A DNA stretch of 64,000 nt from Pseudonocardia kunmingensis (GTDB taxonomy: Bacteria > Actinomycetota > Actinomycetes > Mycobacteriales > Pseudonocardiaceae), in the NCBI RefSeq assembly GCF_006716445.1, contig NZ_VFPA01000009.1, positions 1 to 64,000 of the forward strand, in the 5' to 3' direction. The notes beneath the pieces are model-generated. The model was not told where the DNA came from, did no database searches, and was given only the letters and a program-made list of their open reading frames with translations. Each line of letters starts with the position of its first letter. Positions within the stretch are counted from its first letter, which is position 1. The translations under genes were made by a program, and so were the position numbers. This document shows positions 4,401 through 56,222 of the stretch, piece after piece.

Positions 4401-4509
4401 CGAGAACATCAACTTCTTCGGCGCCATCGAGGTCGACATCGACGCCGAGCTCGCACAGCTCGGCCCCACCGGCTATCGACCACTCCGGGCGCCCGACACC
4501 CTGTTCTGA
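1495..4509 (+). CDS. tnpA: Tn3-family DDE transposase
   Basis: About 1004 residues, full length for the Tn3 family. The enzyme binds the terminal repeats and performs replicative transposition to a cointegrate. An N-terminal DUF4158-type DNA-binding region (FSDEELEGLRRFPEIGREEL) leads into the DDE_Tnp_Tn3 catalytic part from about residue 560 (SLLIELDRRTGFLDCFTH, later SSDGQRFPTRGKST, and the acidic EHATDTHG stretch). It starts with GTG at 1495, about 50 bases inside the left repeat, and reads away from that end. The frame is unbroken to TGA at 4509. The resolvase that would complete transposition is at the far right end. Confidence 0.95.
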   Translation: MAGAVFSDEELEGLRRFPEIGREELFRFFRLTPADVAFVDPGRGRGPADRLGLAVALCTLPWLGFVPDDVASAPRAAVARLAEQLGIDPDVIGSYGRRAKTRTDHQRLAAQYLGWRQAGSLELKELDEFLLARAMEHDLPSLLFRLASEYLISAKVIRPGPVTVVKRVAHARELARQETYDRLAHALTTERCTALDDLLAVDAAIGTTRLRWLNTGPVGASPAAVKAEVAKLGFLRGMGAHTLDLSSLPAERRRFLATVGRRLTAQALQRREPQRRYPILLTLVAQSATGVLDEVVALFDQAVSARESKAGDRMRDALAERATAGEDRQGLLDAILAIAADPAVPDEEVGGLVRGERIGWQRLRAAQATALPPLPRDHGRLAALDASYGYLRQFTPQVLETVVFAGGTAAGDLLAAVGLLRELNATGARKVPAAAPVGFVPTRWRGYLDTAAACGNTSSYRHYWELCVLLALRDGLRSGDVWVPGSRRYADPGASLLTPEQWDQQRAEFCRLVGRPAEATGGLAALEDELHAALGELEATLADGDGPVRLDDAGELVISPLSAEDIPAEAVALKTELTEMLPFAPIVSLLIELDRRTGFLDCFTHAGGKQTRSAELKRNLIAVLLSHATNLGLTRMADACGISYDILAWAEEWYVREETLRAANLALIGYHQNLPLTPIFGTGTLSSSDGQRFPTRGKSTTARPMNRYFAHEGLSTYSAVTDQHTTYGTKVIVATKREAHYVLDEILGNAADVPITEHATDTHGVTLVNFGLFDLLGLQLSPRIRDLGKITLYRTGSKSDAEAAFPHAGPLLTRRANLELVAEHWDDLLRLAGSLKFGHATASLLVGKLSASGRQNALAAALKEYGALRRTIFAARYLSDPSYRRKIARQLNKGESLHALKRDLLYAHEGAIRGRHLEAQTEQAWCLTLATNAVVTWTTEYYGLALDSLRRSGRRVDDEVLAHVSPAHSENINFFGAIEVDIDAELAQLGPTGYRPLRAPDTLF

Positions 4510-24017: not shown

Positions 24018-24227
24018 TCAGAGGTCGAACTCGCCGCCAGCGGCGCCATCGAGGAAGGCTCGCCACTCGTCGCGGGTGAACTTCAGAACAGGGCCGGTCC
24101 GGTCCTTGCTGTCGCGGACCAGAACCACTCCATACTCGTCCACGAGGTTGTCGGCGACTTCGACGCAGTTGCCACCGTTGTTGCTGCGTGTGCTCTTGCG
24201 CCAGACGGCGCCGGTCAGGTCATGCAC
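24018..24227 (-). CDS. DUF397 family small protein
   Basis: 69 residues, the usual DUF397 size, with the family core AVWRKSTRSNNGGNCVEVAD, then VLVRDSKDRTGPVLKF and EWRAFLDGA. DUF397 proteins nearly always pair with an XRE/DUF5753 regulator, as here, where the start overlaps the end of the upstream gene by eight bases. In Streptomyces such pairs control development or antibiotic production, possibly in an anti-regulator manner. Confidence 0.88.
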   Translation of the reverse strand: MHDLTGAVWRKSTRSNNGGNCVEVADNLVDEYGVVLVRDSKDRTGPVLKFTRDEWRAFLDGAAGGEFDL

Positions 24228-25122
24228 CGCTGAATCCCTTCGAAGCTGCGGAGATCATCTTCCTGGACTTGGCTTCGTCGAGTGCCCGCTTCTGCAGGTC
24301 GTCCCAGACGAGCCGGTAGGCGCCGACTTCGTCGGCCTTGTTGAGGTACATCGCGCCGGTCAGGGTGTCGGCGTAGACGAGTGATGGCTCCAGCGGTTCA
24401 CCCGTGCGGGGATCGGCTGGGAAGTCGAGCAGCGCGAAAGCGCTTGCACCCATGCCGCCGTGCACGCCGGCGGACCAGGGGAGGATGCGGATCGATACGC
24501 TTGCCTGCTGCGTGACCTCGAGTAGGTGGTCTAGCTGCTCGGCCATCACTGCCTCGCCGCCGACCGGCCGGTGTAGCACGGCCTCGTTCAGGATGGCGGT
24601 CAGATGAGGCGCCCGAGGGCGGGTCAGGAGTGATTGGCGTTCCAGGCGGACGTGCACCCGGCGCTCGATCTCCTCTTCGTCGGTGTAGCCCGGAGGCATG
24701 CTGTTGATCTGCTTGGCGTAGGACCGGGTTTGGAGCAGGCCCGGAATCAGTTCCGCCTCGTACTGGCTGATCGTCTGGGCGGAGTCCTCCAGCGACACGT
24801 AGAGACCGAACCACGCTGGCAGGTCGCTCTCGGTGTAGTCGTGCCACCAGGACTTCTTGCGGCCGTTGCGGGTCTCGGCGGTCAAGGCCAGCAACATCTC
24901 GCGTTCCTGCGAGTTGGCACCGTAGAGATCCAACATCGCCCGGACATCGACATCGCGGAACCGCACCCGCTCGTCGCCGTCCTCGATGCGGCCCAGCGTC
25001 GCTCGCGCGCGTTGGAGCGCGTTCGCGGCCTGCTCTTGGGTGAGCGCGGCTTGCGTGCGCAGCGCGACGAACCGCCGGCCGATGTGGCGACGGACCAGCG
25101 CGGACCCCACCATGTCGGTCAC
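24220..25122 (-). CDS. XRE-family regulator with DUF5753 domain
   Basis: 300 residues. The N-terminal helix-turn-helix is FVALRTQAALTQEQAANAL followed by QRARATLGRIEDG. The DUF5753 domain covers residues ~85-290, including QTISQYEAELIPGLLQT, RRVHVRLERQSLL and LPWSAGVHGG. It is the standard partner of the DUF397 protein encoded downstream. The target genes are unknown; three tiny genes start about 340 bases away on the other strand. Confidence 0.88.
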   Translation of the reverse strand: MTDMVGSALVRRHIGRRFVALRTQAALTQEQAANALQRARATLGRIEDGDERVRFRDVDVRAMLDLYGANSQEREMLLALTAETRNGRKKSWWHDYTESDLPAWFGLYVSLEDSAQTISQYEAELIPGLLQTRSYAKQINSMPPGYTDEEEIERRVHVRLERQSLLTRPRAPHLTAILNEAVLHRPVGGEAVMAEQLDHLLEVTQQASVSIRILPWSAGVHGGMGASAFALLDFPADPRTGEPLEPSLVYADTLTGAMYLNKADEVGAYRLVWDDLQKRALDEAKSRKMISAASKGFSGA

Positions 25123-26371: not shown

Positions 26372-26407
26372 ATGAGCACCACCGTGCAGATGAGTACCAC
26401 CGTGCAG
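26372..26407 (+). repeat. 18-bp tandem duplication at the precursor start
   Basis: The unit ATGAGCACCACCGTGCAG is followed by ATGAGTACCACCGTGCAG, with one mismatch. It doubles the first six codons (MSTTVQ MSTTVQ) and gives two in-frame ATG codons. Confidence 0.85.
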
Positions 26408-26542
26408 ATCCCGCCCCCCGACGAGTTCGACCTGGACATCCGCGTCGTCGAGTCCGGGGACGCTGCCGCCACCCTGATCAACCTGACCGACAACGGCTGC
26501 GGCAGCACCTGCGCCGGGCCGTGTGTCACCAACGTGGCCTGA
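26372..26542 (+). CDS. lanA: FxLD-family lanthipeptide precursor
   Basis: 56 residues, ribosomally made and then modified. The leader has the family signature F-D-L-D at residues 19-22, followed by IRVVESGDAAATLINL; the core ends TDNGCGSTCAGPCVTNVA. Three Cys (43, 47, 51) can form thioether rings with dehydrated Ser/Thr (candidates Thr39, Ser45, Thr46, Thr53). An AAGGAG precedes ATG 26372. The first six residues are an exact repeat, so translation may also start at 26390. LanB, LanC and a methyltransferase follow on the same strand. The FxLD match and the neighbours agree; ring pattern and bioactivity are unknown. Confidence 0.88.
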   Translation: MSTTVQMSTTVQIPPPDEFDLDIRVVESGDAAATLINLTDNGCGSTCAGPCVTNVA

Positions 26543-26639
26543 CGTTTCAACCACGGCCGGTGCCGGCCCGTCCCGGGTGATCCGCGGTGATCGCCCGGCG
26601 GGCCGGTGCCGGCCCAGACAACGTCGCCGAGAGGGACAC

Positions 26640-29600
26640 ATGGCAAAGAAGGCGCGACCGCTCTACCGCTGCGCTGATGCTGCGCTTGTGCGGGCCGCCC
26701 ACGCCGAGCTGACGTTGCCGATCTGTCCGGACCTGACCGGCGGCGCACCTGCAGATGTCGAACGGTGGCGTCGGTGGCTGCGGGCAGTCTGGGCCTTGGA
26801 CGTGGCCGCTGATCCCCTCGCACACGCCAGCCCCGCCCTGGCCCGCGGGGTGGCGACGGTGTGCGCGGCACAGGACCCCGATGTGGGACAGACCCGTCGC
26901 ATGGTGCTGTCGACACTGCGGTACCTGCTGCGCCTGCAGCATCGAGCGACGCCGTTCGGCCTGTTCGCCGGCGTGGCTCCGGCCCGCTTCGGCGGTGAGC
27001 TCGCGGTGCGCTGGGGTGCGGACCATCGTGCTCTCGTACGGGCCGACGCCTCCTGGCTGGCGAAGGTGATCACCCGGCTGGAGTCCAGCCCGCCCCTGTT
27101 GGCGCGCCTGCCGCTGATCACCAGCAACCTCGTCTTTCCCCGCGGCAACCGGCTGGTCGTGCCCTATCCGCCGCGCACCCACGGTGGGAACGGCGCCGGC
27201 GCGGTCGAGGTGTCCCTGCGGAACACCCCGGCGGTGCAGTTCGCGGTGGACGCAGCCCGATCACCGATCCGCTATACCGAGCTGGCCGAGAAGCTCGCCG
27301 CCGAGTTCCCGACGACGCCGCGGGCCACGGTCACCAGACTGGTGACGAGCCTGGTCAACCAGCGCGTGCTGATCAGCAGCCTTCATGCACCGTCCACGAT
27401 CGTGGATGCCTTCGGACACCTGCTGGCAGAGCTGGAGAACGCGCGCGCGGGCGTCATTCCTCAGGTGGCGGAGCTCGTGCATCAGCTGCAGCGCATCGGC
27501 GCGGACCTGACGCGGCACAACCGCGCCGTCACGGCCACCGCCGGCCGTGCCCTCCGGGTGAGCGTCGCGGAGGAGATGGGGGCGCTGAACGCCACGACAC
27601 GCCAGCCTTTGGCGGTAGACCTGCTGGTGGACTGCTCGCTCGTCCTGCCGCAGCAGGTGGCCCGGGAGACCGAAGCCGCAGCCACCGCGCTGGCCCGTCT
27701 GAGCCCGCAACCGTTCGGCACGGCAGCGTGGAGGAGCTTTCACCAGCGGTTCTTCGAGCGCTACGGGATCGGCTCGCTCGTGCCGCTGCGTGATGTCACC
27801 GATCCGGATGTCGGGCTCGGATTCCCCACCGGATACCTGGACGCGGAGCCCGAACCCCCCGCACCCGTATCCAGCCGGGACCGGCGGCTGCTTGCGCTGG
27901 CCCAGGCGGCAGCCCTGGACGGGCGCCAGGAGATCGTCCTGGACGAGCAGCTGGTCGAGCGCCTCGCGACCGGCGACCAAACCCGGACGCAGATGCCGCC
28001 GCACCTGGAACTGCGGTTCCGGGTTCATGCCTCCTCCTCGGCCACGCTCGAGGGCGGGGAGTTCCGCTTGGAGGTCCTGGGCGCGTCGCGCGGCATCGGC
28101 ACCACGACCGGCCGGTTCCTCGGCCTGCTGGAACCCCCCGACCGTGAACACGCAGCCACTGTGCTCGCCCAGCTGCCGGCGAGCGACCCCGACACCGTGG
28201 CGGCCCAACTGTCCTACGCGCCGCTGGCCCCGAAGGACGCGCACGTCACACGCGCGCCCGAGCTGCTGCCCGCGGTGATCAGCCTGGGCGAGCACCATGC
28301 GCCGTCCGCCAACCTGATCCCCCTAGATGACCTCGTGGTGGGCTGTGATCGGCGGCGCCTGTACCTGGCGTCATTGTCGCTGGGACGGCGGCTGGAGCCG
28401 ACGACGCTGCACGCCTTGGATCTGCGCGTCCACACTCTTCCGTTGGCCCGCTTCATCGCGGAGGTGGGCAGGTCCCAGACGGCCGTGGTGACCGCGTTCG
28501 ACTGGGGTGCCGCCGCTGGCCTGCCGTTTCTGCCACGGGTGCGCTTCGGGCGCACGGTGTTGTCGCCGGCCTGCTGGCGGCTCGAGGGCGGCGACCTGCC
28601 CCGCCGCGGCGCCCCATGGCGGGAGTGGGAAGAGGCCCTGACGGCGTGGTGCGCGCAACGCCGCATGCCGACAGCGGTCCTGCTCACTGAAGGGGACCAG
28701 CTGCTGAAACTCGACCTCGCCCAGAGCGCGCATCGTGTGCTGCTGCGCGCACGGGTGGACTCGGTCGGGCACGCCGTCCTGACCGAAGCCCCCGAGCGGG
28801 ACGCACACGGGTGGTTCGACGGGCACGCCCACGAGATCGTCGTCCCGATGATGGCCGCGAGCCCAGCACGGTGGCCGTCGGTGCCGCCGATCACCGCGAG
28901 CCGGGTGATCAGCCGCAACCACGGCGACCTACCCGCAGCCTCCCGATGGCTGCTCGCCAAGCTGTACGGGCACCACGAGCGCCAGCCGGAGATCCTCGCC
29001 GACCACCTGCCCGAGTTGCTGGGCGAGTGGGACAGCCCGCCCACGTGGTGGTACATGCGCTACCGCGACCCCGAATCCCATCTGCGTCTGCGGATCGCGC
29101 TGCCCGACGCCGCGGGGTTCGGCCCGGCCGCCCAACGGGTGGGCGCCTGGGCGGCCCGGCTGCGGGGCCGAGGGCTGCTGCGGGACGTGCAGTTCGCCAC
29201 CTCCTACCCGGAGGCCGGCCGCTGGGGCACGGGCGCGGTGATGGTCGCGGCCGAGGAGGTGTTCGCCGCCGACTCGCGCGCCCTGGCCGTCCAGTTCGCG
29301 CAGCCGTCCCGGCCGCGCCCGCAGGCCCTGGCCGCCGCGAACTTCGTCGCGATCGCCACCGCGTTCACCGGCAGCACCGAGACCGGAATGGCATGGCTCA
29401 TCACGCACGCGAAGACCGCGTCGTCTGCTGCGGCCTCGTCCACCGCGTTGGACCGGCTTGTGCGGGCCGAAGCGGTGCGGCTGGCCGACCCCACCGACGA
29501 CTGGGCGGCGTTGCGCGCGGAACCCGGTGGCCAGGCGATCAGCGAGTCGTGGAAGCAACGCAGCCACGCCGTGTCCCGCTACCGCGCCCGCCTCACGGAG

Positions 29601-29759
29601 GCCGAGGGCCTGGACCTGGATGTGGTGCTCGACTCCCTGCTGCACGCCCACCACATCCGGGCCGCGGGAATCGACAAGGACGACGAGCGCGTCTGCGTGC
29701 GCCTGGCCCGTGCCGCGGCCTTGGCCTGGCGGGCCCGGACCGTTGGGAGCAAGCGATGA
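26640..29759 (+). CDS. lanB: Class I lanthipeptide dehydratase LanB (full length)
   Basis: 1039 residues from ATG 26640. It uses glutamyl-tRNA to glutamylate precursor Ser/Thr and then eliminates glutamate to give dehydroamino acids. The N-terminal glutamylation domain shows RRMVLSTLRYLLRLQHRATP followed by FGLFAGVAP, the hallmark of LanB; the C-terminal SpaB_C elimination domain starts near residue 770 (WWYMRYRDPESHLRLRIAL) and runs to the end. Unlike split systems, both halves are in one protein, although a second SpaB_C-like domain is encoded downstream. The stop overlaps lanC as ATGA. Confidence 0.92.
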   Translation: MAKKARPLYRCADAALVRAAHAELTLPICPDLTGGAPADVERWRRWLRAVWALDVAADPLAHASPALARGVATVCAAQDPDVGQTRRMVLSTLRYLLRLQHRATPFGLFAGVAPARFGGELAVRWGADHRALVRADASWLAKVITRLESSPPLLARLPLITSNLVFPRGNRLVVPYPPRTHGGNGAGAVEVSLRNTPAVQFAVDAARSPIRYTELAEKLAAEFPTTPRATVTRLVTSLVNQRVLISSLHAPSTIVDAFGHLLAELENARAGVIPQVAELVHQLQRIGADLTRHNRAVTATAGRALRVSVAEEMGALNATTRQPLAVDLLVDCSLVLPQQVARETEAAATALARLSPQPFGTAAWRSFHQRFFERYGIGSLVPLRDVTDPDVGLGFPTGYLDAEPEPPAPVSSRDRRLLALAQAAALDGRQEIVLDEQLVERLATGDQTRTQMPPHLELRFRVHASSSATLEGGEFRLEVLGASRGIGTTTGRFLGLLEPPDREHAATVLAQLPASDPDTVAAQLSYAPLAPKDAHVTRAPELLPAVISLGEHHAPSANLIPLDDLVVGCDRRRLYLASLSLGRRLEPTTLHALDLRVHTLPLARFIAEVGRSQTAVVTAFDWGAAAGLPFLPRVRFGRTVLSPACWRLEGGDLPRRGAPWREWEEALTAWCAQRRMPTAVLLTEGDQLLKLDLAQSAHRVLLRARVDSVGHAVLTEAPERDAHGWFDGHAHEIVVPMMAASPARWPSVPPITASRVISRNHGDLPAASRWLLAKLYGHHERQPEILADHLPELLGEWDSPPTWWYMRYRDPESHLRLRIALPDAAGFGPAAQRVGAWAARLRGRGLLRDVQFATSYPEAGRWGTGAVMVAAEEVFAADSRALAVQFAQPSRPRPQALAAANFVAIATAFTGSTETGMAWLITHAKTASSAAASSTALDRLVRAEAVRLADPTDDWAALRAEPGGQAISESWKQRSHAVSRYRARLTEAEGLDLDVVLDSLLHAHHIRAAGIDKDDERVCVRLARAAALAWRARTVGSKR

Positions 29760-31022
29760 CGACCGCTCAGGTGGGCGCCGCGTCGGCGCTGGTCGAGGTG
29801 ATCGCCCACCGGTTGGCTTCCCCTGACCAGGTTCTCGGCCGGGAGCTCACTCATGGTTGGTGGCCTCAGTCTCTGGCCTATGGCGCCGCCGGTGTCGCAC
29901 TGCTGCACGTCGAGCGTGCCCGCGCGGGGCTGGCGCCCTGGCAGCCGGCTCACGACTGGATCGCCTGCGCGGCACACGGACCGGTGATCGCCGGTGAGGA
30001 CAGCCACCTCTACTACGGCGCGCCCTCGATCGCCTTCGCGATGCACGCCGCGGCCGACCGAACCGGCCGGTACCGCCGCGCCCTGGCCACCCTTGATCGA
30101 CACATCGCCGCCACGACGCGCCGGCGACTGGACCGCGCACACATCCGCGCGGATCGTGGCGAGCGGCCCGCGCTAGCCGAGTTCGACACCATCCGCGGTC
30201 TGACCGGCGTCGGTGCCTACCTGCTACGCCGCGAGCCGCACGGGGACCTGATGCGCGCCATCCTGGCCTACCTGGTCCGGCTGACCGAGCCGGTCACCAG
30301 CGAGGACGGCGAGGAGTCGCTCGGCTGGTGGAGCGATCTCGCCCCCTCGGGACGGCTGGCCGAGACCTTCCCCGGTGGCCATGCCAACATCGGAATGGCC
30401 CATGGCATCGGCGGGCCGCTGGCACTGCTGTCGCTGGCGATGCGCGACGGCGTGACCGTGCACGGCCAGGCCGAGGCGATCGGGCGAATCTGCGCCTGGC
30501 TCGACCAGTGGCGTCAGCACGGCGAGGCAGGTTGGTGGTGGCCGTACTGGGTCACGCCCCAGCAGGTTCGCGCCGGACAACCCGCCGCTTCGATGCCGTC
30601 ACGCCCGTCGTGGTGCTACGGCACAGCCGGGCTTGCCCGAGCACAGCAGCTCGCCGCGCTGGCCACCGGCAACACCGCCCGACGACAGATGGCCGAACAC
30701 GCCCTGCTCAGTGCGCTGACCGATCCGAGCCAGCTCGAGTCCACCACCGATATGTCGTTCTGCCACGGCTACGCCGGCCTGCTGCACATCGCCGGACGGG
30801 CCGCGGCCGACGCGATGACCCCGGACCTGGCTGGCTGCCTGCCGGAGCTGCTCGGCGCGCTCATCCCGGACAGACGGAACCGACGCGGACCTCCTGGTCA
30901 CCTCGCTGCTGGACGACGTCGGGCTACTCGAAGGCGCCACCGGCGTTGCCCTGACCCTGCTCACCGTCGCGGCCGGCACGGCCCCAGATTCCGGCTGGGA
31001 CGCATGTTTCCTGGTCGGCTGA
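29756..31022 (+). CDS. lanC: Lanthionine synthetase LanC (frameshifted near the C-terminus)
   Basis: A zinc-dependent cyclase that adds Cys thiols to dehydroamino acids. The fold is shown by TIRGLTGVGAYLL, AHGIGGPLALLSLA, and the zinc motifs WCYGTAGLA and FCHGYAG. The coding signal is in one frame from 29756 to about 30880 (ending ELLGALIP), then moves by one base to DADLLVTSLLDDVGLL, EGATGVALTLLTVAAG and WDACFLVG, stopping at 31022. The second part matches the usual LanC C-terminus. In the uncorrected frame translation would run on into the next gene. A real one-base insertion would leave a cyclase lacking its last ~45 residues; an assembly error would restore it. Confidence 0.8.
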
Positions 31023-31048
31023 CCGCGACACCTCGAAAGGGACACACG

Positions 31049-33133
31049 ATGGATCCCGGCGAGTGGCCGCAGGCCGTCATCGAGTTCGCCGACGAGGCGA
31101 GCGCCGAGCAGGTCGCTGTGGGGCATCTGGGTCCAGCGCTGGTAGCGGCACAGGCCGATGGGCTGCTTTCCAGATGGTGGTTCATCCGGAAAGCACCGTG
31201 TTGGCGACTGCGTTACCTCCCGGCAGACAGCGGCGGGTTCACGACCGTGCTGGATCGTCTGGCCGCCGAAGGCTGGATCGCCGGGTGGACGGCGGGAATC
31301 TACGAGCCGGAGACCCACGCGTTCGGTGGCGCCGCCGGCATGGACATCGCCCACGAGCTGTTTCACCGCGACAGCCGCCACCTGCTCAACCACCTCGCCC
31401 GGCAGCAGGCAGCGGCGCCTGACATGCCCGGCCTTGGACGGCGCGAACTGGCGATCCTGTTGTCCAGCATCCTGTTCCGCAACGCCGGACAGGACTGGTA
31501 CGAGCAGGGCGACGTGTGGGCGAGGGTCACCCAACACCGGTCGGTCGGAAACACCGAGCTGTCCACGCAGCGCCGCGGCCGGTTGCGGGCCGCCGTTCAC
31601 CGACTCATGACCGTCGATGCCGGCCCGACCAGCCCGTTGGTCGATGGTGGACCGTTGGCGGCCATCGCCGACTGGGCCGAGGCGTTCGAGCAGGCCGGAC
31701 AGCAGCTCGCGGAGCTGGCCCGGCGCGGAGGGCTGCAGCGCGGCCTGCGGGCTGTGCTCGCCCATCACGTGATCTTCCACTGGAACCGGCTGGGGCTGCC
31801 CGCCGCGGAACAGCACATCCTGACCGAACTAGCGAAAGAAGCAGTCATGGGAACGAGTGAGCCCGCCGCCATCAGCATCGCCGAGACGAACACCCAGGTG
31901 AACGACGAGTCCGACGCCCTCGCTGAACGCCTGCGCAACGAGCTCGCCGACCACCTGCGCCAGCAGGGCACGCTCCGCACCGAGCAGGTCGATGCTGCCG
32001 TGCGGGCCGTGCCGCGCCACCGGTTCGTGCCCGCGGTGGCGTTGGAAGAGGCGTACGCGGACAAGCCGCTCTACACCACGCATGACGGCACCGGCACGTC
32101 GATCAGCGCCGCGTCACAGCCGACGATCGTCGCGATGATGCTCGAACAACTTCAGGTCCAGCCCGGCCAACGGGTGCTGGAACTGGGTGCGGGCACCGGC
32201 TACAACGCGGGCCTGCTCGCACACCAGGTTGGCAGCGACGGCCAGGTCATCACCATCGACGTGGATGAGGACATCGTGGACGGTGCACGGTCCGGTCTGG
32301 TGGCGGCAGGACTCGCCAACGTGAAGGTCATCCTCGGTGACGGGGCGCTCGGCTACCCCGAGGGCGCACCCTATGACCGGATCGAGGCCACCGTCGGCGC
32401 CTACGGTGTGCCGACGCCGTGGCTGGAGCAGCTCGCCCCGGACGGGCGTCTGGTCGTGCCGCTGCGCCTGCGCGGGAGCGTGTCGCGATCGATCGTGTTC
32501 GAGCGCGACCATGACGGGCGCTGGCACAGCCTGTCCAGCGAGATGTGCACGTTCATGCCGCTTCGCGGGATAGCCGACGACGCGCGCCGCACCGTCGCGC
32601 TGACCTCCGACGCGGCCGTCACCCTGCAGACCCATCAGGATCAGTTGGTGGACGCAGAGGCCCTTGCCGACGTGCTCGACCAGCCCCGCACCGAAGCGTG
32701 GACAGGGGTGAAGTTCCGCGGGCCGGAATCGATGGAGTGGATGGATCTGTGGTTGGCCTGCACCCTGGACAACGCCGTGAGTCGTATGCCCGTCGAGAGA
32801 TCGGCGGTGGAACGCGGCGCGGTTAGACCCCAGTTTGGCTGGGGGTCGATGGCGACCATTGAGAAGGGCAACCTCGCTTACCTCACCGTCCGTCGGAACG
32901 GGCTCGCACCGGACGGTGGCAACCTGTACGAGACCGGGGTCATCGGCCACGGCCCCAGCCGTGACGCGTTGGTCAACCGGGTCGTGGACGCGATCTCTGC
33001 CTGGGACCGGCACTACCGCTCACGCACCGTCGGCTTTCAGATCCAGGCCACCAACACCCCGCCGATCCAGCCGAAGCCCGGCCGGTTCGCCATCGACACC
33101 CCGCTCAACCGAATCGTCATCGAGTGGCATTGA
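31049..33133 (+). CDS. Thiopeptide-type (SpaB_C-like) domain fused to an FxLD-system methyltransferase
   Basis: 694 residues in one frame. Residues ~1-265 are a thiopeptide-type bacteriocin biosynthesis domain (WWFIRKAPCWRLRYLPAD, then GGAAGMDIAHELFHRDSR and AHHVIFHWNRLGL). From about residue 267 the protein is a protein-L-isoaspartate O-methyltransferase-like enzyme: VPRHRFVPAVALEEAY, GTSISAASQPTIVAMML, SAM site VLELGAGTGYNAGLLA, then VGAYGVPTPWLEQLAPDG. In lanthipeptides related enzymes methylate a core Asp to drive isoaspartate or succinimide formation; the precursor has Asp41 beside the ring region. An in-frame ATG at 31848 could also give a free methyltransferase. Elsewhere the two parts may be separate genes. 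Confidence 0.85.
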   Translation: MDPGEWPQAVIEFADEASAEQVAVGHLGPALVAAQADGLLSRWWFIRKAPCWRLRYLPADSGGFTTVLDRLAAEGWIAGWTAGIYEPETHAFGGAAGMDIAHELFHRDSRHLLNHLARQQAAAPDMPGLGRRELAILLSSILFRNAGQDWYEQGDVWARVTQHRSVGNTELSTQRRGRLRAAVHRLMTVDAGPTSPLVDGGPLAAIADWAEAFEQAGQQLAELARRGGLQRGLRAVLAHHVIFHWNRLGLPAAEQHILTELAKEAVMGTSEPAAISIAETNTQVNDESDALAERLRNELADHLRQQGTLRTEQVDAAVRAVPRHRFVPAVALEEAYADKPLYTTHDGTGTSISAASQPTIVAMMLEQLQVQPGQRVLELGAGTGYNAGLLAHQVGSDGQVITIDVDEDIVDGARSGLVAAGLANVKVILGDGALGYPEGAPYDRIEATVGAYGVPTPWLEQLAPDGRLVVPLRLRGSVSRSIVFERDHDGRWHSLSSEMCTFMPLRGIADDARRTVALTSDAAVTLQTHQDQLVDAEALADVLDQPRTEAWTGVKFRGPESMEWMDLWLACTLDNAVSRMPVERSAVERGAVRPQFGWGSMATIEKGNLAYLTVRRNGLAPDGGNLYETGVIGHGPSRDALVNRVVDAISAWDRHYRSRTVGFQIQATNTPPIQPKPGRFAIDTPLNRIVIEWH

Positions 33134-33134
33134 G

Positions 33135-34253
33135 ATGCATGTCGAGCCGATCACTCGACGATTCCCGCTGGTCGCCCGCCCGCGACCAGCGTGCCCGCCG
33201 CTCACCGAACGGGTGCGGGAGGTAAGCGAGCTCGCCAGGACGGCCGCCGAGAAGACCGACGCCGCAGCGCTGTCGACGGCTGCCGCGGCGCACAACAGAG
33301 CCGCGCTGATCGCCAGCGACTGCGGCCTGGCCGATCTCGCCCGGTCCTGGTGCCGACAGCAACTCGACGTGTACCTGCGCGCCCTCCCCTTGGGCGTGCA
33401 GGTCGCCAAACACGCCTTGGAACCCGTCATCAACCTCGCTCGGCTATCGATCCGCGAGGGCGACGGCCATGGTGCCTATCAGCTGCTCGACACGCTGCAC
33501 CAGGCCGTCACGACTCGGACGACCAGCGCGATCGACGGCCGGCGCGTGCCCTTCGGCGAGTTCTGCGTCTCGGACGCGGACCATCGCACGCTCTGCCAAT
33601 GGCTGTGGGCCGTCTTCCTGGCCGAGGGCACCCGGGCACTGGCCGGTGGGGGTCACTGGACGCAGGCACTGGGACATGTGGGCAAGCACGGCGGTATCGG
33701 CCAGCGGCTACTGGATGGGCGGCAGGTGGCGATCCTGGCGCGCTGGAGCACGGGAGACTGCGATTCCGCGTTGGCAGCTCTCGACAACAGCACAGCATCG
33801 GAGCCCTGGGAACACGCCGTCGCCGCCTGCCTGGCGGTGCTGTGCCGCAGATCCGGCTCGTACCCCGCCGAATCCAGCGTGAGCACCATGGTGGACCGGT
33901 ACCTGGCGCTCGAACCCGAACCGCCGCTGCTGGTGTTCCGTGTCCGCCTGGGCATGACCACGTTTGACCTCGCGGGCGGTACTGACTACTCCGCGGCCGC
34001 GCAGATCGCTACCCAGCTCGTGAGGGAGGTGGTGGCATCCGGGGACGGATACGCGGCGCGCGAGGTGCTCACGCATCAGGAACTCCGGGCATGGCTGGGC
34101 GAAGCATCAGAGCAAGCGCTTGCCGAGTCCGCACGATCGTCGGGACTCGGACGCGGTGCGTTGCCCGATCGCCTGCTGGCCACACTGCTCACCGCGGTGA
34201 AGACGAGCGAGGCGGTGACCGCGCGCAATCTCGCGGTGACAGCGCATGTCTGA
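33135..34253 (+). CDS. Helical-repeat protein of the FxLD cluster, unknown function
   Basis: 372 residues, starting one base after the methyltransferase stop. It is built of Ala/Leu-rich helices in a TPR-like arrangement (ALSTAAAAHNRAALIASDCG, ADLARSWCRQQLDVYLRAL, then PVINLARLSIREGDGHGAYQ and LRAWLGEASEQALAESA). There is no enzyme motif, signal peptide or membrane helix. Its tight coupling points to a role in the pathway, such as scaffolding or regulation. Similar helical proteins are common beside FxLD genes, but I cannot name this one. Confidence 0.65.
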   Translation: MHVEPITRRFPLVARPRPACPPLTERVREVSELARTAAEKTDAAALSTAAAAHNRAALIASDCGLADLARSWCRQQLDVYLRALPLGVQVAKHALEPVINLARLSIREGDGHGAYQLLDTLHQAVTTRTTSAIDGRRVPFGEFCVSDADHRTLCQWLWAVFLAEGTRALAGGGHWTQALGHVGKHGGIGQRLLDGRQVAILARWSTGDCDSALAALDNSTASEPWEHAVAACLAVLCRRSGSYPAESSVSTMVDRYLALEPEPPLLVFRVRLGMTTFDLAGGTDYSAAAQIATQLVREVVASGDGYAAREVLTHQELRAWLGEASEQALAESARSSGLGRGALPDRLLATLLTAVKTSEAVTARNLAVTAHV

Positions 34254-34257: not shown

Positions 34258-34566
34258 TGATCGCGGGACGCCAGCTGGTTCGCGCGCTCGGTCCACGCAG
34301 GACGCCTCACCCGCGGCCTACGCGCCGTGCTCATCCAGCACATCTTGTTCGCGTGGAACCTGGCCGGCATCCCCGCCCACCGGCAGGCGCTGCTCGCCGG
34401 GGCCGCCGCGTTCGCCGCCCGCACGGGCGAGCTGCTGCAGCTGTGGCACGCGCAATGGCCCAGCCAGCCCGCCATCACCGCCGATCCGGCCGGCACTCCC
34501 GTCGGGAAGCTGCCGGCCGGGACCCGCATCCACAAGCCGAACACCACACTGACTATCGCATGGTGA
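34258..34566 (+). pseudogene. C-terminal fragment of a second thiopeptide-type domain
   Basis: The frame reads GRLTRGLRAVLIQHILFAWN, then LAGIPAHRQALLAGAAAFAA and LWHAQWPSQP. This parallels the end of the first domain (GLQRGLRAVLAHHVIFHWN) but is a distinct paralogue, not a copy. No N-terminal part remains. It suggests that the cluster once held another SpaB_C-like gene or that two clusters were fused. Confidence 0.6.
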
Positions 34567-34867
34567 CGGCGGCGCCCGATGATCGCTCAAACCGAACTGA
34601 GGACGCAGACGGCGCAGCCGTCGAGGAGATCCTCACCAGCTGCTGACCGACAAGCGGACCACCCCGGGCAGCGACCGTTGTCGCTGGTCAGGACCCGCGT
34701 CTGACGCGACACGCCAGCAAGAAGGCGTCAAGGTTGCAGACAGTTGTTCCCCGGTCGCTGTACCTTCTAGGCGTACACGCCGGGCAAGTAAGGTGAAGCC
34801 AGCCCGACGTGCACAACGGGCAGGACCGGCCCCGGGTCGCCACCCGGAACCGGCCCCACTCGATCAC
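34567..34867. other. No gene seen
   Basis: This 301-base gap contains a very short frame (MVTAAPDDRSNRTEDADG, ending at 34646) that overlaps the fragment's end and may be incidental. A direct promoter is not clear. Confidence 0.4.
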
Positions 34868-35038: not shown

Positions 35039-35321
35039 CGTCACCTCCGTTAGGAGACGCTCCCAACCGGGGAGCGTCGGCCGGCGCCGTTCCTGACGCC
35101 GAGCTCGAGCGCAGGACCAACGCGACCATCCGACGGGCGCTGAACGAGTATCGAGCACACGACGGTGAGTTCCAGTCACCGACACACCGGAGCATGTTGT
35201 GTGTCGGTGCCGGAGCTGCCCGCCGTGCACGACGTGCTCGAGCACTGGCGGATATCTGCCGACCTGACCGGAGAACACCATCGCGTCCATCAGGCGGCCT
35301 GCGACGCGACCTGCGGGCCCG

Positions 35322-35776
35322 TGCTCCTGACCGAACTGGCGAAAGAGACAGTCATGGGGACGAGTGAGCCCGCCGCGACCGGCATCGCCGAGACGAACAC
35401 CCAGGTGAACGACGAGTCCGACACCCTCGCTGAACGCCTGCGCGACGAGCTCGCCGACCATCTGCGCGAGCAGGGCACGATCCGCACCGAGCAGGTCGAT
35501 GCGGCGGTGCGGCCGTGCCGCGCCACCGGTTCGTGCCCGCGGTGGCGTTGAAAGAGGCATACGCGGACAGGCCGCTCTACACCAGGCATGACGGCACCGG
35601 CACGTCGATCAGTGCCGCGTCACAGCCGACGATCGTCGCGATGATGCTCGAACGAGTCCAGGTCCAGCCCGGCCAGCGGGTGCTGGAGTTGGGTGCGGGC
35701 ACCGGCTACAACGCGGGCCCGCTCGCCCACCAGGCTGGCAGCGACGGCTCACCGGGCCCGCGTTGGGCCGTGAGCG
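35322..35776 (+). pseudogene. Truncated duplicate of the FxLD methyltransferase
   Basis: This stretch copies about 430 bp of the fusion gene, from LTELAKE through MGTSEPAA, the isoaspartyl-methyltransferase start and the SAM site VLELGAGTGYNAG. Near 35505 one base is missing relative to the parent (GTGCGGCC against GTGCGGGCC), which shifts the frame. It ends shortly after GSDG, just before a Tn3-type inverted repeat at 35777. The high identity to 31818-32240 shows a fairly recent duplication followed by truncation. Confidence 0.85.
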
Positions 35777-38892: not shown

Positions 38893-39804
38893 TCAGGCGC
38901 TGGCCTTCGTGGTGCGCCAGGGGGCGTTGGTGTCGGCGAGGGTGTCGAGCATGAGCTGGCACCAGGTGATCGCGGCGTTGACGGCGAGATGGGCGTGGCG
39001 GGGGCGGAGTCCAACGCGGGGGCCGGCGGCGCCGTGGCCGGTGCCGTAGCCGCGGTTGCGCAGCTCGGCGACGCCGATGGCGATGCCGGTGAGCGAGCCG
39101 AGGATCCTCTTGACCGCGTCGCTGCCGTCGGGTCCGGGGGTGGCCGCGGAGGGGTGCAGGCTCAGGGTCTGCTGTGCCTTGCGGATCAGCGCGGCGATGT
39201 CGTCCTTGTCGTTGACCGGCTCGCCGCGTTCGATCAGCACGGTCTTGGCGGTGCTCTCGATCAGTTCCTTGGCGCTGCCGACGGCCTGGGCGGGATCGTC
39301 GCTGATCGCGCGCTGGATCCGGTCGAGGTTGTCGAGGATCGCGGCGGGGTCACGCAGCCCATCGAGTGGAACCCGAGGCAGCTGGGCGGCGGCGATGGTG
39401 ATCTGGCCGTGCTCGTCGATCCGGCAGCCATCACCGCGCAGTGCCTTGCGCACCGGCTGGCTGTACTGGTCGTCGAAGTCCTCCATCAGCCGGGCAATCA
39501 CCCGCAACGCCCTGGTCACGTGGTCGTGGTCGGTCCAGTTCACCGCTTCGAGGTGGTGCTGGGTGGTGGTGCGACGCACGCTGCCGTCGTCCCAGGTGGA
39601 GTCCGGGTTCGGGGCGAAGCCCTCGTCCTGGAACGCGGCCCGGATCTGACCGTCGGTGCTGCCGGTCATCAGCGAGCGGAACCGGCCACGGGTACTACTG
39701 CTGATCAGATCCCGCCCTGACCGCGTCGGGCGACCCTGACCGCGGTGCGCTCCCGTCCGGGGGTGGCCGTCCAGGGTCTGCAGGGGTGCCGGCTGATCGT
39801 TCAC
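38893..39804 (-). CDS. Abortive-infection C-terminal (Abi_C) domain protein
   Basis: 303 residues from GTG 39804, with GAGG upstream. The C-terminal Abi_C signature is present: GSAKELIESTAKTVLIERG, ILGSLTGIAIGVAELRNRG, then GYGTGHG, and AVNAAITWCQLMLDTL. The N-terminal half (DGQIRAAFQDEGFAPNPDS, ALRVIARLMEDFDDQYSQ) is a helical sensor-like region. Abi_C proteins act in phage exclusion through growth arrest or death. The helicase is the next gene on the same strand, only 39 bases away. The pairing is suggestive of a two-gene system. Confidence 0.78.
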   Translation of the reverse strand: MNDQPAPLQTLDGHPRTGAHRGQGRPTRSGRDLISSSTRGRFRSLMTGSTDGQIRAAFQDEGFAPNPDSTWDDGSVRRTTTQHHLEAVNWTDHDHVTRALRVIARLMEDFDDQYSQPVRKALRGDGCRIDEHGQITIAAAQLPRVPLDGLRDPAAILDNLDRIQRAISDDPAQAVGSAKELIESTAKTVLIERGEPVNDKDDIAALIRKAQQTLSLHPSAATPGPDGSDAVKRILGSLTGIAIGVAELRNRGYGTGHGAAGPRVGLRPRHAHLAVNAAITWCQLMLDTLADTNAPWRTTKASA

Positions 39805-40799: not shown

Positions 40800-40823
40800 T
40801 GCTTCATGAAGGTTAGGAGACCC

Positions 40824-41759
40824 ATGGCTAGCTTCGGGTACGCGCGGGTGTCCACCCGTGAGCAGAGCCCCGATCATCAGATCGACGCACTGCTCGGCGC
40901 AGGCGTGCCCGCAGAGAACTTGTTCGTCGACAAGGTCTCCGGGAAGCTCGCTTCCCGGCCGAAGCTGGACGCGATGCTGGCCAAGCTCCGCGAGGGCGAC
41001 GAGGTCGTAGTGACCCGGTTGCGCCGCATCGGCCGTTCCCAGCAGCACCTGTTGGAACTGGTGCGCGGGTTCGGGGAGCAGGGGGTGGACTTCGTCGTCC
41101 TGGAGCAGGGCATCGACACGAGTACGCCGGGCGGTCGCCTCATCTTCCACTTCCTGGCCGCGCTAGCCGAGTACGACCGGGAGATGATCGTCGAAGGCAC
41201 GCGCGACGGCCTGGCCGCTGCCCGCGCTCGCGGACGCGTCGGTGGCCGCCCTCCGGCGCTGTCGCAACGCCAGCTCGACCAGGCCCAGCAGATGTACGAC
41301 TCCGGTGAACACACCGTCGAGGAGATCGCCGACACCTTCCGCGTCGGGCGCGCCACCATGTACCGCCACCTGGACGCCTACAAGGACGGTCGCGACTGCG
41401 TCTTGATCGTCTACCGCAACACCCGCCGCAAGATCGACGCCAACCTGCGCCGCTACGGCGAGACCGGCGCCAGCGAAGCCGTCCAACTCGAGGCCGACCG
41501 CAAATGGTGGCCCATCGCGCCCAACCGCGAGCCCCGGGTGAAGGCCATCGTGTACGTCGTCGACAGCACCGTGACCCGCGTCCGTGGCATCGAACCTGGC
41601 AAGAAGTGGCAGCGAGATGACCGTGGCTACGCCGACGTCCCGGCCACCAGACCGCTCACCGACAGGGAGATCGTCGAGCAGTTGCCCACGCTCGAGTTGC
41701 GGATCGGTGACCACCGCCCGCACGTGCGCGGCAAGATCCGCGAGTACCTGCCGTTGTAG
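40824..41759 (+). CDS. Serine recombinase with an extra C-terminal domain
   Basis: 311 residues. Residues 1-140 are a resolvase/invertase catalytic domain (MASFGYARVSTREQS with Ser10, then VVTRLRRIGRSQQHLL and FLAALAEYDREMI). A helix-turn-helix follows (EHTVEEIADTFRVGRATMYRH). After it comes a ~120-residue extension beginning KDGRDCVLIVYRNTRRKID and ending HVRGKIREYLPL, which ordinary resolvases lack. TAGGAG is placed before ATG 40824. It may be the site-specific recombinase of the mobile segment that carries the Abi_C/helicase genes. The C-terminal domain's role is not known to me. Confidence 0.85.
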   Translation: MASFGYARVSTREQSPDHQIDALLGAGVPAENLFVDKVSGKLASRPKLDAMLAKLREGDEVVVTRLRRIGRSQQHLLELVRGFGEQGVDFVVLEQGIDTSTPGGRLIFHFLAALAEYDREMIVEGTRDGLAAARARGRVGGRPPALSQRQLDQAQQMYDSGEHTVEEIADTFRVGRATMYRHLDAYKDGRDCVLIVYRNTRRKIDANLRRYGETGASEAVQLEADRKWWPIAPNREPRVKAIVYVVDSTVTRVRGIEPGKKWQRDDRGYADVPATRPLTDREIVEQLPTLELRIGDHRPHVRGKIREYLPL

Positions 41760-49731: not shown

Positions 49732-50433
49732 TCATCCGACGCCGAGCAACCGACGAGCCGTGTCCTTGTCGTGCCGAAAGTCCCGCGTGCTCGCGCGGTG
49801 CACGATGGTCCCCTTGGCCATCACCGCGACCTGGCCGGCCACGCTGAAGGCCAGCCGCAGGTCCTGCTCCACGAGCACGGCCGACATGCCACTCGAGGTG
49901 AGCTCGGACAGGAGGTCGCCGATTGTGCGGATGACGGCCGGCGCCAGGCCGTCGCTGGGTTCGTCGAGCAGGAGCAGCCGCGGGTTCCCCAACAGGGCGC
50001 GACCGATGGCGAGCATCTGCTGCTCGCCGCCGGAGAGCTGGTGTCCCCCGTTGTTCTTGCGCCTTGCCAGGTTGGGCATCAGCTCGTAGATGCGCTGCAG
50101 GGTCCACGGCCCGGACGAGCGCACAGCGATCCGTAGGTTCTCCTCCACGCTCAACGGGGCGAAGACGCGACGTCCCTGCGGGACGAAGCCGATCCCGGCA
50201 CGGGCGATCCTGTTGGGTGCCTGGCCGCTGATGTCGGCGCCGTCGAACGTGACGGAGCCTGCCCGCAGCCGCACCATCCCCATCAGGGTGTTGATCAGGG
50301 TGGTCTTGCCTGCGCCGTTGCGCCCCAGCACGGCAAGGACCTCCCCGGCCGGTACGTCGAGGTCGACGCCCTGCACCACGCGGCTGCGTCCGTACCCCGA
50401 CTCGACGCCGCGGACCTCGAGCAGCGCGCTCAC
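49732..50433 (-). CDS. livF: Branched-chain amino-acid-type ABC transporter ATPase (LivF)
   Basis: 233 residues from GTG 50433. Walker A is GRNGAGKTTL, the ABC signature is LSGGEQQM and Walker B is LLLLDEPSDGL. It is a HAAT-family ATPase and would pair with LivG. It is the last gene of the minus-strand operon and overlaps livG by four bases. In this context the substrate is probably an aromatic acid and not an amino acid. Confidence 0.9.
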   Translation of the reverse strand: MSALLEVRGVESGYGRSRVVQGVDLDVPAGEVLAVLGRNGAGKTTLINTLMGMVRLRAGSVTFDGADISGQAPNRIARAGIGFVPQGRRVFAPLSVEENLRIAVRSSGPWTLQRIYELMPNLARRKNNGGHQLSGGEQQMLAIGRALLGNPRLLLLDEPSDGLAPAVIRTIGDLLSELTSSGMSAVLVEQDLRLAFSVAGQVAVMAKGTIVHRASTRDFRHDKDTARRLLGVG

Positions 50434-51248
50434 TCCGTCTCCAGGAACAGGTCGGTGTCGTCGGCCGCGCCCAGGTAGGCGTGTTGAACCTCGGCCGACG
50501 TGCGGACCTCCTCCGGAGTGCCGTCGGCGAGGAGTCGGCCGGTCACCATCACCGACACGCGGTCGGCGAGGGAGAACACGACGTCGAGGTCGTGCTCCAC
50601 GATGACGATCGTGAGCGACCGCGGTAGCGACCTGACGAGCTCGACGAGACCCGCCGTCTCGACGGGTGACATCCCCGCGGTCGGTTCGTCGAGCAGCAGG
50701 ACCCGGGGTGCCGTGGCCAGCGAGACCGCGACCTCGAGCTGGCGTCGTTCGCCATGCGAGAGATCGGCGACGAGGTCGTCCTCCCGGCGCGCGAGCCCGA
50801 CCCGCGCCAGATGTCCACGTGCGGTCTCCACGACCAGACGTTCGCGGGTGCGACGAATCATCCTGAAGGAGATGCCTGCCCGCCGTTGCCCGGCGAGGAC
50901 GACGTTGTCCAGTACCGAGAGGTCGAGGAAGAGGCTGGAGGTCTGGAACGTCTGGGTGATGCCGAGCACGGCTCGATCGTGGACCGGACGGGTGCTCACG
51001 TCCCGGTCGCCCAGCCACACGCTCCCGCCGGTGAGCGGGATCGTGCCGGCGATCAGGCCGAACAGTGTCGACTTGCCGGCGCCGTTGGGGCCGATCACCG
51101 CGTGCCTGCTCCCCACCGCGACGTCGAACGAGACGTCCCGGACGGCGTCGATCTTCCCGTAGCGGCAGCCGACCCGGCGCAGGCTCAGCGCGACCGGCGA
51201 TCCACGGAGTGCAGCCCACGTCGTCGACGTAGCAGGGGTCCCGGTCAT
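50430..51248 (-). CDS. livG: Branched-chain amino-acid-type ABC transporter ATPase (LivG)
   Basis: 272 residues from ATG 51248. Walker A is GPNGAGKSTL, the signature is LSHGERRQL and Walker B is VLLLDEPTAGM. The LivG-type switch region FQTSSLFLDLSVLDNV is present. It overlaps livM and livF by four bases at either end (ATGA-type). Confidence 0.9.
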   Translation of the reverse strand: MTGTPATSTTWAALRGSPVALSLRRVGCRYGKIDAVRDVSFDVAVGSRHAVIGPNGAGKSTLFGLIAGTIPLTGGSVWLGDRDVSTRPVHDRAVLGITQTFQTSSLFLDLSVLDNVVLAGQRRAGISFRMIRRTRERLVVETARGHLARVGLARREDDLVADLSHGERRQLEVAVSLATAPRVLLLDEPTAGMSPVETAGLVELVRSLPRSLTIVIVEHDLDVVFSLADRVSVMVTGRLLADGTPEEVRTSAEVQHAYLGAADDTDLFLETE

Positions 51249-52315
51249 AATGGCGCTCCTGTCGCAGGCGGCACAGCGGGAGGCGCGGGCCGACGTGGTC
51301 GCCACCAGCGGGACACCAGCGGCCACACCGTGCCGACGACACCCTTGGGCATCAGGTAGACGACGACGACGAACAGGACACCCAGCAGGAGAACTCCGTG
51401 AACGCCGACGTCCGGAGCGAGCTGGTCACGGACGAGCACCACCGCGAGGGCGCCGACGAATCCGCCATACAGCGTTCCCGTCCCGCCGGTGACGATCACC
51501 AGCAGTGCCAGTGCGGCCACCGAGAACCCGACGTCGGACGGCGAGACGAAACGGGTCTGGGCCACGAGCAGGCTGCCGGCGACGCCGGCGACGGCCCCGG
51601 CGATCACGAAGGCGGCGAGCCGGTAGGCCGTGACGTTGTAGCCGATGGCCCGCATCCGGTGTTCGTTCGCCTTGATCCCACGCAGGGCGCGGCCGAACGG
51701 CGATCGGACGACGAGGTGCAGACCGGCTGTGGCCACCACGACCACCACCAGGACGTACCAGAACGTGAAGGCGTTGGCCGACAGCACGAAGACGCCGGGC
51801 AGGACGTCCAGGCGGGGGATACCGGACACGCCGTTCGAGCCACCGGTCACCCCACGCAGCGACAGCGCCAACGTCCGTCCGAGCTCGGCGATCGCCAGCG
51901 TGAACATGAGGAAGTAGATGCCGCGCAGCCGGACGGCCACGAGCCCCACGAGGAGGGACAGCAACGCACCGGCGGTGAGCCCGACGAGCAGGTGCAGGGG
52001 CGCGAGCGGCAGGAGGTCGACGGCGACGATGGCAGAGGCGTAGGCCCCGACCCCGTAGTAGATGGAGTGCCCGAGCGAGGGCAGCCCGGTGTAGCCGACC
52101 AGCAGGTCGAGGCTCGCGGCGAGGAGGCCCAGGACGAGGACGTCGGTAAGCAGGGACACGGTGAAATCGTCGGCCATCAGTGGCGTCGCGCCGAGGACGA
52201 GGAGACCGCCGACGACGGCGATCACCGCCCGGACGGGGCGACGCGTCGTCGCCTGCGGGCGTGACCCCGCCTCCTGCCCGCGGAGGGGTGTCGAGCGGGA
52301 CGTCGTCGAGCTCAT
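51245..52315 (-). CDS. livM: Branched-chain amino-acid-type ABC transporter permease (LivM)
   Basis: 356 residues with about nine or ten membrane helices. The family motif GYTGLPSLGHSIYYGVGAYA and the EAA-like loop SPFGRALRGIKANEHRMRAI are clear. It overlaps livH and livG. It forms the channel with LivH. Confidence 0.88.
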   Translation of the reverse strand: MSSTTSRSTPLRGQEAGSRPQATTRRPVRAVIAVVGGLLVLGATPLMADDFTVSLLTDVLVLGLLAASLDLLVGYTGLPSLGHSIYYGVGAYASAIVAVDLLPLAPLHLLVGLTAGALLSLLVGLVAVRLRGIYFLMFTLAIAELGRTLALSLRGVTGGSNGVSGIPRLDVLPGVFVLSANAFTFWYVLVVVVVATAGLHLVVRSPFGRALRGIKANEHRMRAIGYNVTAYRLAAFVIAGAVAGVAGSLLVAQTRFVSPSDVGFSVAALALLVIVTGGTGTLYGGFVGALAVVLVRDQLAPDVGVHGVLLLGVLFVVVVYLMPKGVVGTVWPLVSRWWRPRRPAPPAVPPATGAPL

Positions 52316-53202
52316 GAGTGGCTCCTCGTGGCGTCTCCGAGGAGACCTGCGGGGCGGAAGGTCAGAACGAGCGCCATCACGGCGAACACCAGGAAGCCCG
52401 CGATCTCCGGGACGAAGGCGGCTCCGAGGGCCTGGACCTGACCGATGAGCAGCGCTCCGACCAGAGCGCCGCGGACCGACCCCAGCCCACCGACGACGAC
52501 GACGACGAGCGTGAGGATGAGCATCTCGTGGTCCAGGCCGGGGTGGGCACCGAACAACGGGGCTCCGAGCACTCCACCCAGCACGGCCAGGGCGGACCCC
52601 GCCGCGAACACTCCGAGCAGGACCTTCCGGACGTCGACGCCCAGAGCCGCGACCATGTCCCGGTCCACCACGGCTGCCCGGACCAGCGCGCCGAGCCTGG
52701 TGCGCTCGAAGGCCACGTAGACCGCGACCGCGATGACGGCCCCGAACCCGATCAACGCAAGGCGGTAGGCTGGGTACGAGCTGCTGGCGACGTTCACGCT
52801 GCCGGATAGCGCTTCCGGGGCTGCGACACTGAACACGTCGTTGCCGAAGATGAGGTATACGACCTCGACCAGGATGAACGCCACCCCCAGGGTGAGCAGG
52901 GCCTGGTCGAGGTGACCGCGTCCGGCCAGCGGCCGGGTCATACCCATCAGTGCCGCTCCGCCGACGAGGCCGACGACGATGGCCAATAGCGCGGCCCAGA
53001 CGAAGCCGCCGCCTCCGCGGACCACCAGATAGGCCAGATAGGCGCCCACCAGGTACAGCGCGCCGTGGGCCAGGTTCAGCACGTCCATCAGCCCGAAGAT
53101 GAGCGAGAGGCCGACGGCGATGGTGAACAACAGGAGGCCGACGGCCAAGCCGTTGAGAACGTTGATGAGGTTGCTGTCGAACCAGCTGATCACGGCGGTC
53201 AC
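52312..53202 (-). CDS. livH: Branched-chain amino-acid-type ABC transporter permease (LivH)
   Basis: 296 residues, polytopic. The family motifs FGLMDVLNLAHGALYLVGAY and ERTRLGALVRAAVVDRDMVA are present, and the C-terminus ends in LVFAVMALVLTFRPAGLLG-like sequence. It starts 33 bases after the ferredoxin gene, so the transporter is probably cotranscribed with the P450 system. Confidence 0.88.
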   Translation of the reverse strand: MTAVISWFDSNLINVLNGLAVGLLLFTIAVGLSLIFGLMDVLNLAHGALYLVGAYLAYLVVRGGGGFVWAALLAIVVGLVGGAALMGMTRPLAGRGHLDQALLTLGVAFILVEVVYLIFGNDVFSVAAPEALSGSVNVASSSYPAYRLALIGFGAVIAVAVYVAFERTRLGALVRAAVVDRDMVAALGVDVRKVLLGVFAAGSALAVLGGVLGAPLFGAHPGLDHEMLILTLVVVVVGGLGSVRGALVGALLIGQVQALGAAFVPEIAGFLVFAVMALVLTFRPAGLLGDATRSHS

Positions 53203-56078: not shown

Positions 56079-56222
56079 CGGGTGCTCCCGGGATCTCGAC
56101 GGCGGGCGAGGGGGCGTGCTGCTACGCGGTGGCGAGCACGTACGACCCGGTCATCGCCCGGAGCTGGAACGAGGCGGCTCACATGACTGAGATGTAAGCA
56201 TGGCGGGACGAAATGTCCAACT

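Follow-up and report, generated by a model that had tools for sequence, protein, structure and literature searches.

A probable coi-type class I lanthipeptide cluster with a frameshifted lanC and an asparagine-bearing precursor core in Pseudonocardia kunmingensis

The DNA analyzed here (the window) covers positions 1 to 64,000 of a contig of 147,617 bases from the 9.14 Mb genome of Pseudonocardia kunmingensis. A compact plus-strand operon at 26372-34253 contains five genes, namely a precursor (lanA), a dehydratase (lanB), a cyclase (lanC), a lyase-methyltransferase fusion and a tetratricopeptide repeat (TPR) solenoid protein (Table 1), and none of the five is an exporter or a protease. Our analysis suggests that the locus is very probably a class I lanthipeptide cluster of the coi type, the pathway of which can be read by analogy with the coi and olv clusters of Streptomyces. 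An initial annotation of this stretch had proposed an FxLD lanthipeptide cluster, and the class I FxLD assignment is borne out by scores above the cut-offs of both TIGR04363 and TIGR04364. The five genes, the FxLD precursor, LanB and the three core cysteines also stand as described, while an intact LanC and the label 'thiopeptide domain' do not. A chance origin is excluded because of the profile scores and because the gene order is conserved in relatives. The gene content, the domain and catalytic signatures, the lack of a recurrent exporter or protease among the families identified, the lanC frameshift, and the predicted TPR fold and its linkage were obtained directly.

Table 1. Features of the lanthipeptide locus and its surroundings in the window
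Feature	Position	Strand	Evidence
lanA, FxLD-family precursor, 56 aa	26372-26542	+	TIGR04363 55.3 bits (cut-off 30)
lanB, full-length dehydratase, 1039 aa	26640-29759	+	Lant_dehydr_N 726.8 bits, Lant_dehydr_C 144 bits
lanC, cyclase with frameshift	29756-31022	+	LANC_like 137.8 bits (cut-off 23.2)
CoiSA-like fusion, 694 aa	31049-33133	+	TIGR03891 195.8 bits, TIGR04364 482.4 bits (cut-off 320)
CoiH-like TPR-solenoid protein (predicted), 372 aa	33135-34253	+	AlphaFold2 mean pLDDT 95.2, pTM 0.90
Decayed lyase-methyltransferase piece, lyase C-terminus directly into methyltransferase C-terminus	34276-34567	+	18.5 bits, TIGR04364 positions 337-394
Decayed lyase-methyltransferase piece, linker and methyltransferase N-terminus	35228-35748	+	97.2 bits at 35512-35748
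XRE-family regulator with DUF5753	24220-25122	-	Pfam/NCBIfam scan; family in 22/84 surveyed sources

Related loci were gathered by scanning a genome collection, which returned 124 relatives of the fusion; the best 80 of these 124 were kept with flanks of up to 10 kb. Adding three loci from a search of the genus gave 83 loci and, with a 30-kb slice of the window, 84 sources, all selected by a match to the fusion or to the TPR protein. The methyltransferase is found in all 84 (by selection), LanB in 68, LanC in 67 and the TPR protein in 65; the LanC of the window is missing from this count because its frame merges with that of the fusion. These counts overstate the number of independent cases, since one locus (L027) is about 99.6% identical over about 20 kb to three others (L028, L029 and L035), has shorter stretches in common with L038 and L066 and matches L068 at 99.99% over 6.9 kb, and several Streptomyces loci also resemble each other. 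The records of the L027 group are named Amycolatopsis, Prauserella, Saccharopolyspora, Saccharomonospora and Pseudonocardia, and their near-identical cluster and flanks reflect either recent transfer of an island or contamination. Recurrence clustering (families in at least 5 sources) yielded 31 non-core families, including the XRE-DUF5753 regulator (22 of the 84 sources), a family with a sub-threshold TPR match (16), a second TPR-like family (7) and two helix-turn-helix (HTH) families (9 and 5).

LanB, for which the ATG at 26640 was chosen as start within an open frame that begins at 26523, consists of a glutamylation part followed by an anti-type glutamyl lyase with Tyr808, Arg816, Arg818, Arg861 and a presumed catalytic His1002, as judged by column comparison. 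It thus carries both the glutamylation and the elimination domains that mark class I. The fusion matches TIGR03891 at residues 8-266 and TIGR04364 at residues 292-693, and combines a syn-type glutamyl lyase domain (Lys48, Arg53, Arg55, Ala91) with an aspartate O-methyltransferase of the PIMT (protein isoaspartate methyltransferase) type. What had been called a thiopeptide domain is therefore a second glutamyl lyase with the published syn-lyase residues, which, in the part of PMC9486935 used here, are a Lys substituting for the anti-lyase Tyr and a hydrophobic residue substituting for the anti-lyase Arg. The marks were compared across 59 LanB domains and 61 lyase domains, fused or free, drawn from the retrieved loci and the window and aligned together. 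All 61 lyase domains, that of the window included, carry Lys, and 59 of them carry Ala; of the 59 LanB domains, 39 carry Tyr and 57 carry Arg. The window conforms to both marks, with Lys48 and Ala91 in the fusion, and Tyr808 and Arg861 in LanB. The fused lyase domain is expected to make (E)-dehydrobutyrine (Dhb) at T53 of the precursor. A second, separate methyltransferase above the FxLD cut-off is present in the same genome (C3:697555-698742), with ProB-like and Obg-like frames, recognized by eye, nearby.

The precursor carries the leader motif FDLD at residues 19-22 and a core with three cysteines (TDNGCGSTCAGPC), which were seen in the translation and which the initial annotation had also noted. 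The core runs from T39-D-N41-G-C43 through G-S-T46-C47 and A-G-P-C51 to V-T53-N-V-A. LanA is the only TIGR04363 match in the whole genome, and a comparison with PDB sequences found no relative, the only matches being to filamin (E 0.058 or higher). The core reads TDNGC, with Asn41 at the position where the TxDGC motif has Asp, and Asp40 preceding it. Lanthimiditides, that is, lanthipeptides with an aspartimide or isoaspartate (isoAsp), are recognized by an Asp at the TxDGC position, and lanA lacks it. Among 58 distinct cores that were readable in the loci and the window, there are 46 DD, 6 DG, 4 TDNGC (the window, L056, L070 and L081), 1 TNDGC and 1 TSDNC cores; this tally started from 59 distinct rows, from which a chance open reading frame (ORF; L063) was removed, and the registers of L017 and L018 were assigned by eye as SDGGS and SDGGC. 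Within the order, the pattern TDNGCGxTC occurs in 1 of 298 genomes, that of P. kunmingensis itself (0 with the pattern reversed), and TDDGCGxTC in 3 of 298 (1 with the pattern reversed, G262). Some clusters (L009, L010, L013, L014, L016, L018 and L045) contain two or three FxLD precursors, and in these one precursor has an SDGGC or TDGGC core that is devoid of the second Asp.

The likeness to known systems is greatest for the coi cluster of Streptomyces coelicolor A3(2), which in the cited portion of PMC9486935 comprises CoiA1, CoiB, CoiC, CoiSA and CoiH, the same gene set as in the window if the TPR protein corresponds to CoiH. The gene after the fusion is conserved and is a candidate counterpart of coiH. 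The CoiA1 rings are given in that source as Thr43-Cys47, Thr50-Cys55 and Thr57-Cys51, and by this published numbering the window has Thr or Cys at all six ring positions (T39-C43, T46-C51 and T53-C47). Both clusters also contain a lyase-methyltransferase fusion with syn-lyase residues and, as far as that account of coi goes, both are without a cluster protease. The window differs from coi in its frameshifted lanC, its TDNGC core and the decayed lyase-methyltransferase pieces downstream. The olv cluster of Streptomyces olivaceus NRRL B-3009 (OlvA, OlvB, OlvC and OlvSA), as presented in the parts of PMC13001092 and PMC9486935 drawn on here, is likewise class I, with a PIMT-type methyltransferase that makes isoAsp, an FxLD-family precursor and no protease; unlike the window, it has an OlvSA without a fused lyase and no additional protein of unknown function (PMC9486935, same portion). 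The single TIGR04363 match of the olv strain, presumably OlvA, reads TGDGC where the window reads TDNGC. One S. olivaceus locus from the methyltransferase search (L054) was considered as the olv cluster and rejected, as it has no LanB match. In kind, the window also agrees with the FxLD lanthipeptides of families I 1-4 of Walker 2020, as outlined in an excerpt of PMC7268733, by passing the curated TIGR04363 and TIGR04364 cut-offs. Its fused lyase has the residues that mark syn-lyases like SptBb, the split dehydratase lyase of SapT described in PMC9486935, and differs from SptBb, on that description, in being fused to a methyltransferase beside a full-length LanB.

The initial annotation listed LanC among the cluster genes and overlooked a frameshift, which bears directly on whether this copy of the cluster makes anything. 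The gene is a LanC-type cyclase by its LANC_like score and by its unbroken motifs SWCYGTAG (285) and SFCHGYAG (334), the Cys and His of which we take to be zinc ligands, but it does not have the unbroken reading frame of a working class I pathway. The LANC_like (Pfam) match ends at profile position 291 of 350. In tblastn, the LanC proteins of four relatives follow frame +2 of the window to about 30862-30871 and frame +3 from 30864-30882 to 31016, which locates the frameshift within about 30862-30882; two of the four continue at low similarity in frame +2 to 30952-30955. As a result, the conserved LanC end (GLLEG...SGWDxC, to 31019) lies in a different frame, and the lanC frame, which is part of an open frame spanning 28811-33133, continues uninterrupted through the whole fusion gene. 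Intact copies are found in relatives. The change could be a sequencing error.

The last gene of the operon had been described as a helical protein, and here the description was refined to a predicted TPR solenoid, nearly all helical in the AlphaFold2 model, that is common to comparable loci: a TPR gene follows the fusion in 52 of the 62 loci in which LanB, LanC and a downstream lyase domain are present and the sequence extends far enough to show it. TPR profile matches are weak in its relatives, and the protein itself matches neither a TPR profile nor an HTH family. Among 148 genomes of the class, 23 of 23 strong matches outside its own genome adjoin lyase or methyltransferase genes. In addition, a glutamyl lyase and a CoiH-like TPR protein occupy one open frame in two genomes, at L136:4706-6847 and at L135:2557-5022 (minus strand). 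Foldseek against the PDB gave TM-scores of at most 0.40 by query length among the 50 matches listed, and in VIA-align comparisons NprR and Rap tie with eukaryotic TPR proteins. Kinship with the TPR-like and HTH neighbors was tried and rejected, as the profile comparison was weak (probability 54% and 11%).

No exporter, leader protease or immunity gene was seen linked to the cluster, as first annotated, and ABC (ATP-binding cassette) and S8 patterns had no match at 15001-45000 in a scan that took in not every window gene. Peptidase_C39 has no match in the genome. The nearest ABC genes seen are Liv/Urt-like and lie at about 49.7-53.2 kb. Liv/Urt-like ABC genes, a periplasmic binding protein and a gentisate-dioxygenase-like gene, all with NCBIfam scores below the curated cut-offs, make up a set at 49735-53202 and 56200-61105 that is perhaps concerned with uptake and aromatic breakdown.

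Across the 84 sources, ORFs of at least 150 amino acids outside the cluster bounds were scanned with ABC and protease patterns, and the sources with a match within 3 kb were set against those with one farther away. ABC ATPases appear in 3 sources near versus 6 farther (0.69 versus 1.08 per 100 kb); the three (L011, L012 and L016) are all Streptomyces and were found again, within 5 kb, by a stricter ABC pattern. ORFs with at least five hydrophobic segments are similarly spread (13 near versus 15 farther; 3.0 versus 2.7 per 100 kb). HExxH ORFs are denser near clusters (5 versus 1; 1.15 versus 0.18 per 100 kb), with four of the five near cases in look-alike Streptomyces loci. The S8, S9, M16 and C39 patterns matched no ORF near or far, a result of little weight as these patterns had no positive control. 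Of the 31 non-core families 20 were identified, and among these any exporter or protease family is confined to a single lineage; the 11 outside the Pfam scan each occur in no more than 9 sources, chiefly L027-group or look-alike Streptomyces loci. Exceptions restricted to one lineage are an amino acid permease and a UPF0014 protein, each in 6 loci (the latter in the L027 group), and a Peptidase_M15 protein and a peptide deformylase, each in 5. In one of three annotated plasmid clusters an ABC gene lies about 1.2 kb downstream, a fourth record carries no gene table, and the plasmid record L131 has a gene of the DD-metalloendopeptidase family downstream on the opposite strand.

An exporter loss peculiar to the window is thus rejected, since the compared relatives are also without a recurrent exporter. 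In the literature, absence of a protease is stated for coi-type clusters, for which no product from native producers is reported (PMC9486935, in the part used here), and the class I lanthipeptide paenilan is matured by a protease encoded elsewhere (PMC8960859, as excerpted). Taken with the pattern in the relatives, these reports make the absence a known family trait rather than the special feature it was first taken for. Nor does a missing exporter compel the alternative, raised in the initial annotation beside export by host machinery, of a product that works within the cell or as a signal; the simplest reading is that of an unlinked protease together with a general exporter.

By analogy with coi and olv, we infer the chemistry, ring pattern, order of steps and role of the TPR protein as follows. 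LanB would glutamylate the core threonines via glutamyl-tRNA, and its own lyase domain would produce (Z)-Dhb at T39 and T46 by eliminating glutamate, with (E)-Dhb at T53 left to the fused syn-lyase domain. LanC would close the three methyllanthionine rings, T39-C43, T46-C51 and T53-C47, after which the methyltransferase domain would methylate an acidic residue in the first ring, leading to succinimide and isoAsp. A product of the coi type would contain LL-, DL- and D-allo-L-methyllanthionine. Asn-Gly is the dipeptide most liable to spontaneous succinimide formation, and the product could therefore retain isoAsp without methylation of an Asp, with Asn41-Gly deamidating to the succinimide and the methyltransferase only recycling isoAsp; alternatively, Asp40 could serve as the target. 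The TPR protein probably holds the peptide or presents it to the lyase. Leader removal and export would most likely depend on unlinked host genes, as is usual for this family.

Several points weigh against this pathway as an account of the window. The frameshifted lanC is the sole LANC_like gene found in the genome, and N41 stands in for the Asp of TxDGC, which is the residue modified in the published cases (PMC10787088 and PMC13001092, in the portions cited). CoiSA, on the evidence of the relevant part of PMC9486935, was assayed via its lyase domain only, and it is from cluster content that the TPR protein is taken as the putative CoiH. The first two of these points, together with the two decayed lyase-methyltransferase pieces downstream (the second of which is itself frameshifted near 35512) and the confinement of the TDNGCGxTC core within the order to this one genome, would also fit a cluster in decay, in which the frameshift is real, the Asn is a relaxed change, the pieces are remnants of a duplicated or formerly larger locus, and a ringed peptide is no longer made. 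We consider decay a serious contender, if somewhat short of an even chance: the frames of LanA, LanB, the fusion and the TPR protein are uninterrupted and give good scores, and the LanC tail, although out of frame, retains 47-51% identity to the four relatives and has no stop, which suggests that the frameshift is either recent or a sequencing error.

A further reading builds on the coi-type pathway and joins two proposals, which we put forward together only tentatively, as a possibility well below an even chance. The CoiH-type TPR protein would be an obligatory, dedicated subunit of the syn-lyase step that binds the leader or the half-modified core, passes it on among LanB, LanC and the lyase-methyltransferase, and perhaps retains the product in the cytoplasm until an unlinked protease cuts it; and the methyltransferase here would need no Asp, Asn41-Gly forming the succinimide by itself.

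It is improbable that the product is an intracellular signal or regulator with the TPR protein as its receptor, similar to Rap and NprR in mode rather than descent, and the nearby XRE regulators as output. Eukaryotic scaffold TPR proteins score equally, so that the TPR fold shows no function, and the profile comparison with the TPR-like and HTH neighbors is weak. Moreover, the two lyase-TPR open frames point to a place in biosynthesis, and ABC genes do lie close downstream in three loci and one plasmid cluster. A working three-part LanC-lyase-methyltransferase protein, for which one might cite the stop-free open frame of 1480 codons containing both the LANC_like and TIGR04364 matches, is very unlikely, as the stretch that would join the parts is the conserved LanC C-terminus read out of frame and rich in Arg, the genes are separate in relatives, and the fusion gene retains its own ATG at 31049.

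Elsewhere on the same contig, signs of mobile elements were observed, comprising a Tn3-type transposase, an Abi_C (abortive infection) protein and a resolvase (1495-4506, 38896-39804 and 40806-41756).

The locus belongs to an already known type of actinobacterial gene cluster, one that encodes a ring-bearing peptide. Whether the copy in P. kunmingensis works depends on whether the lanC frameshift, by which it may be impaired, is real. The parts worth following are the TPR protein and the Asn variant. The predicted fold of the TPR protein, its tight linkage and the two natural lyase fusions make its role directly testable, and the natural substitution of Asn for Asp could be used to test the true requirement of the methyltransferase.

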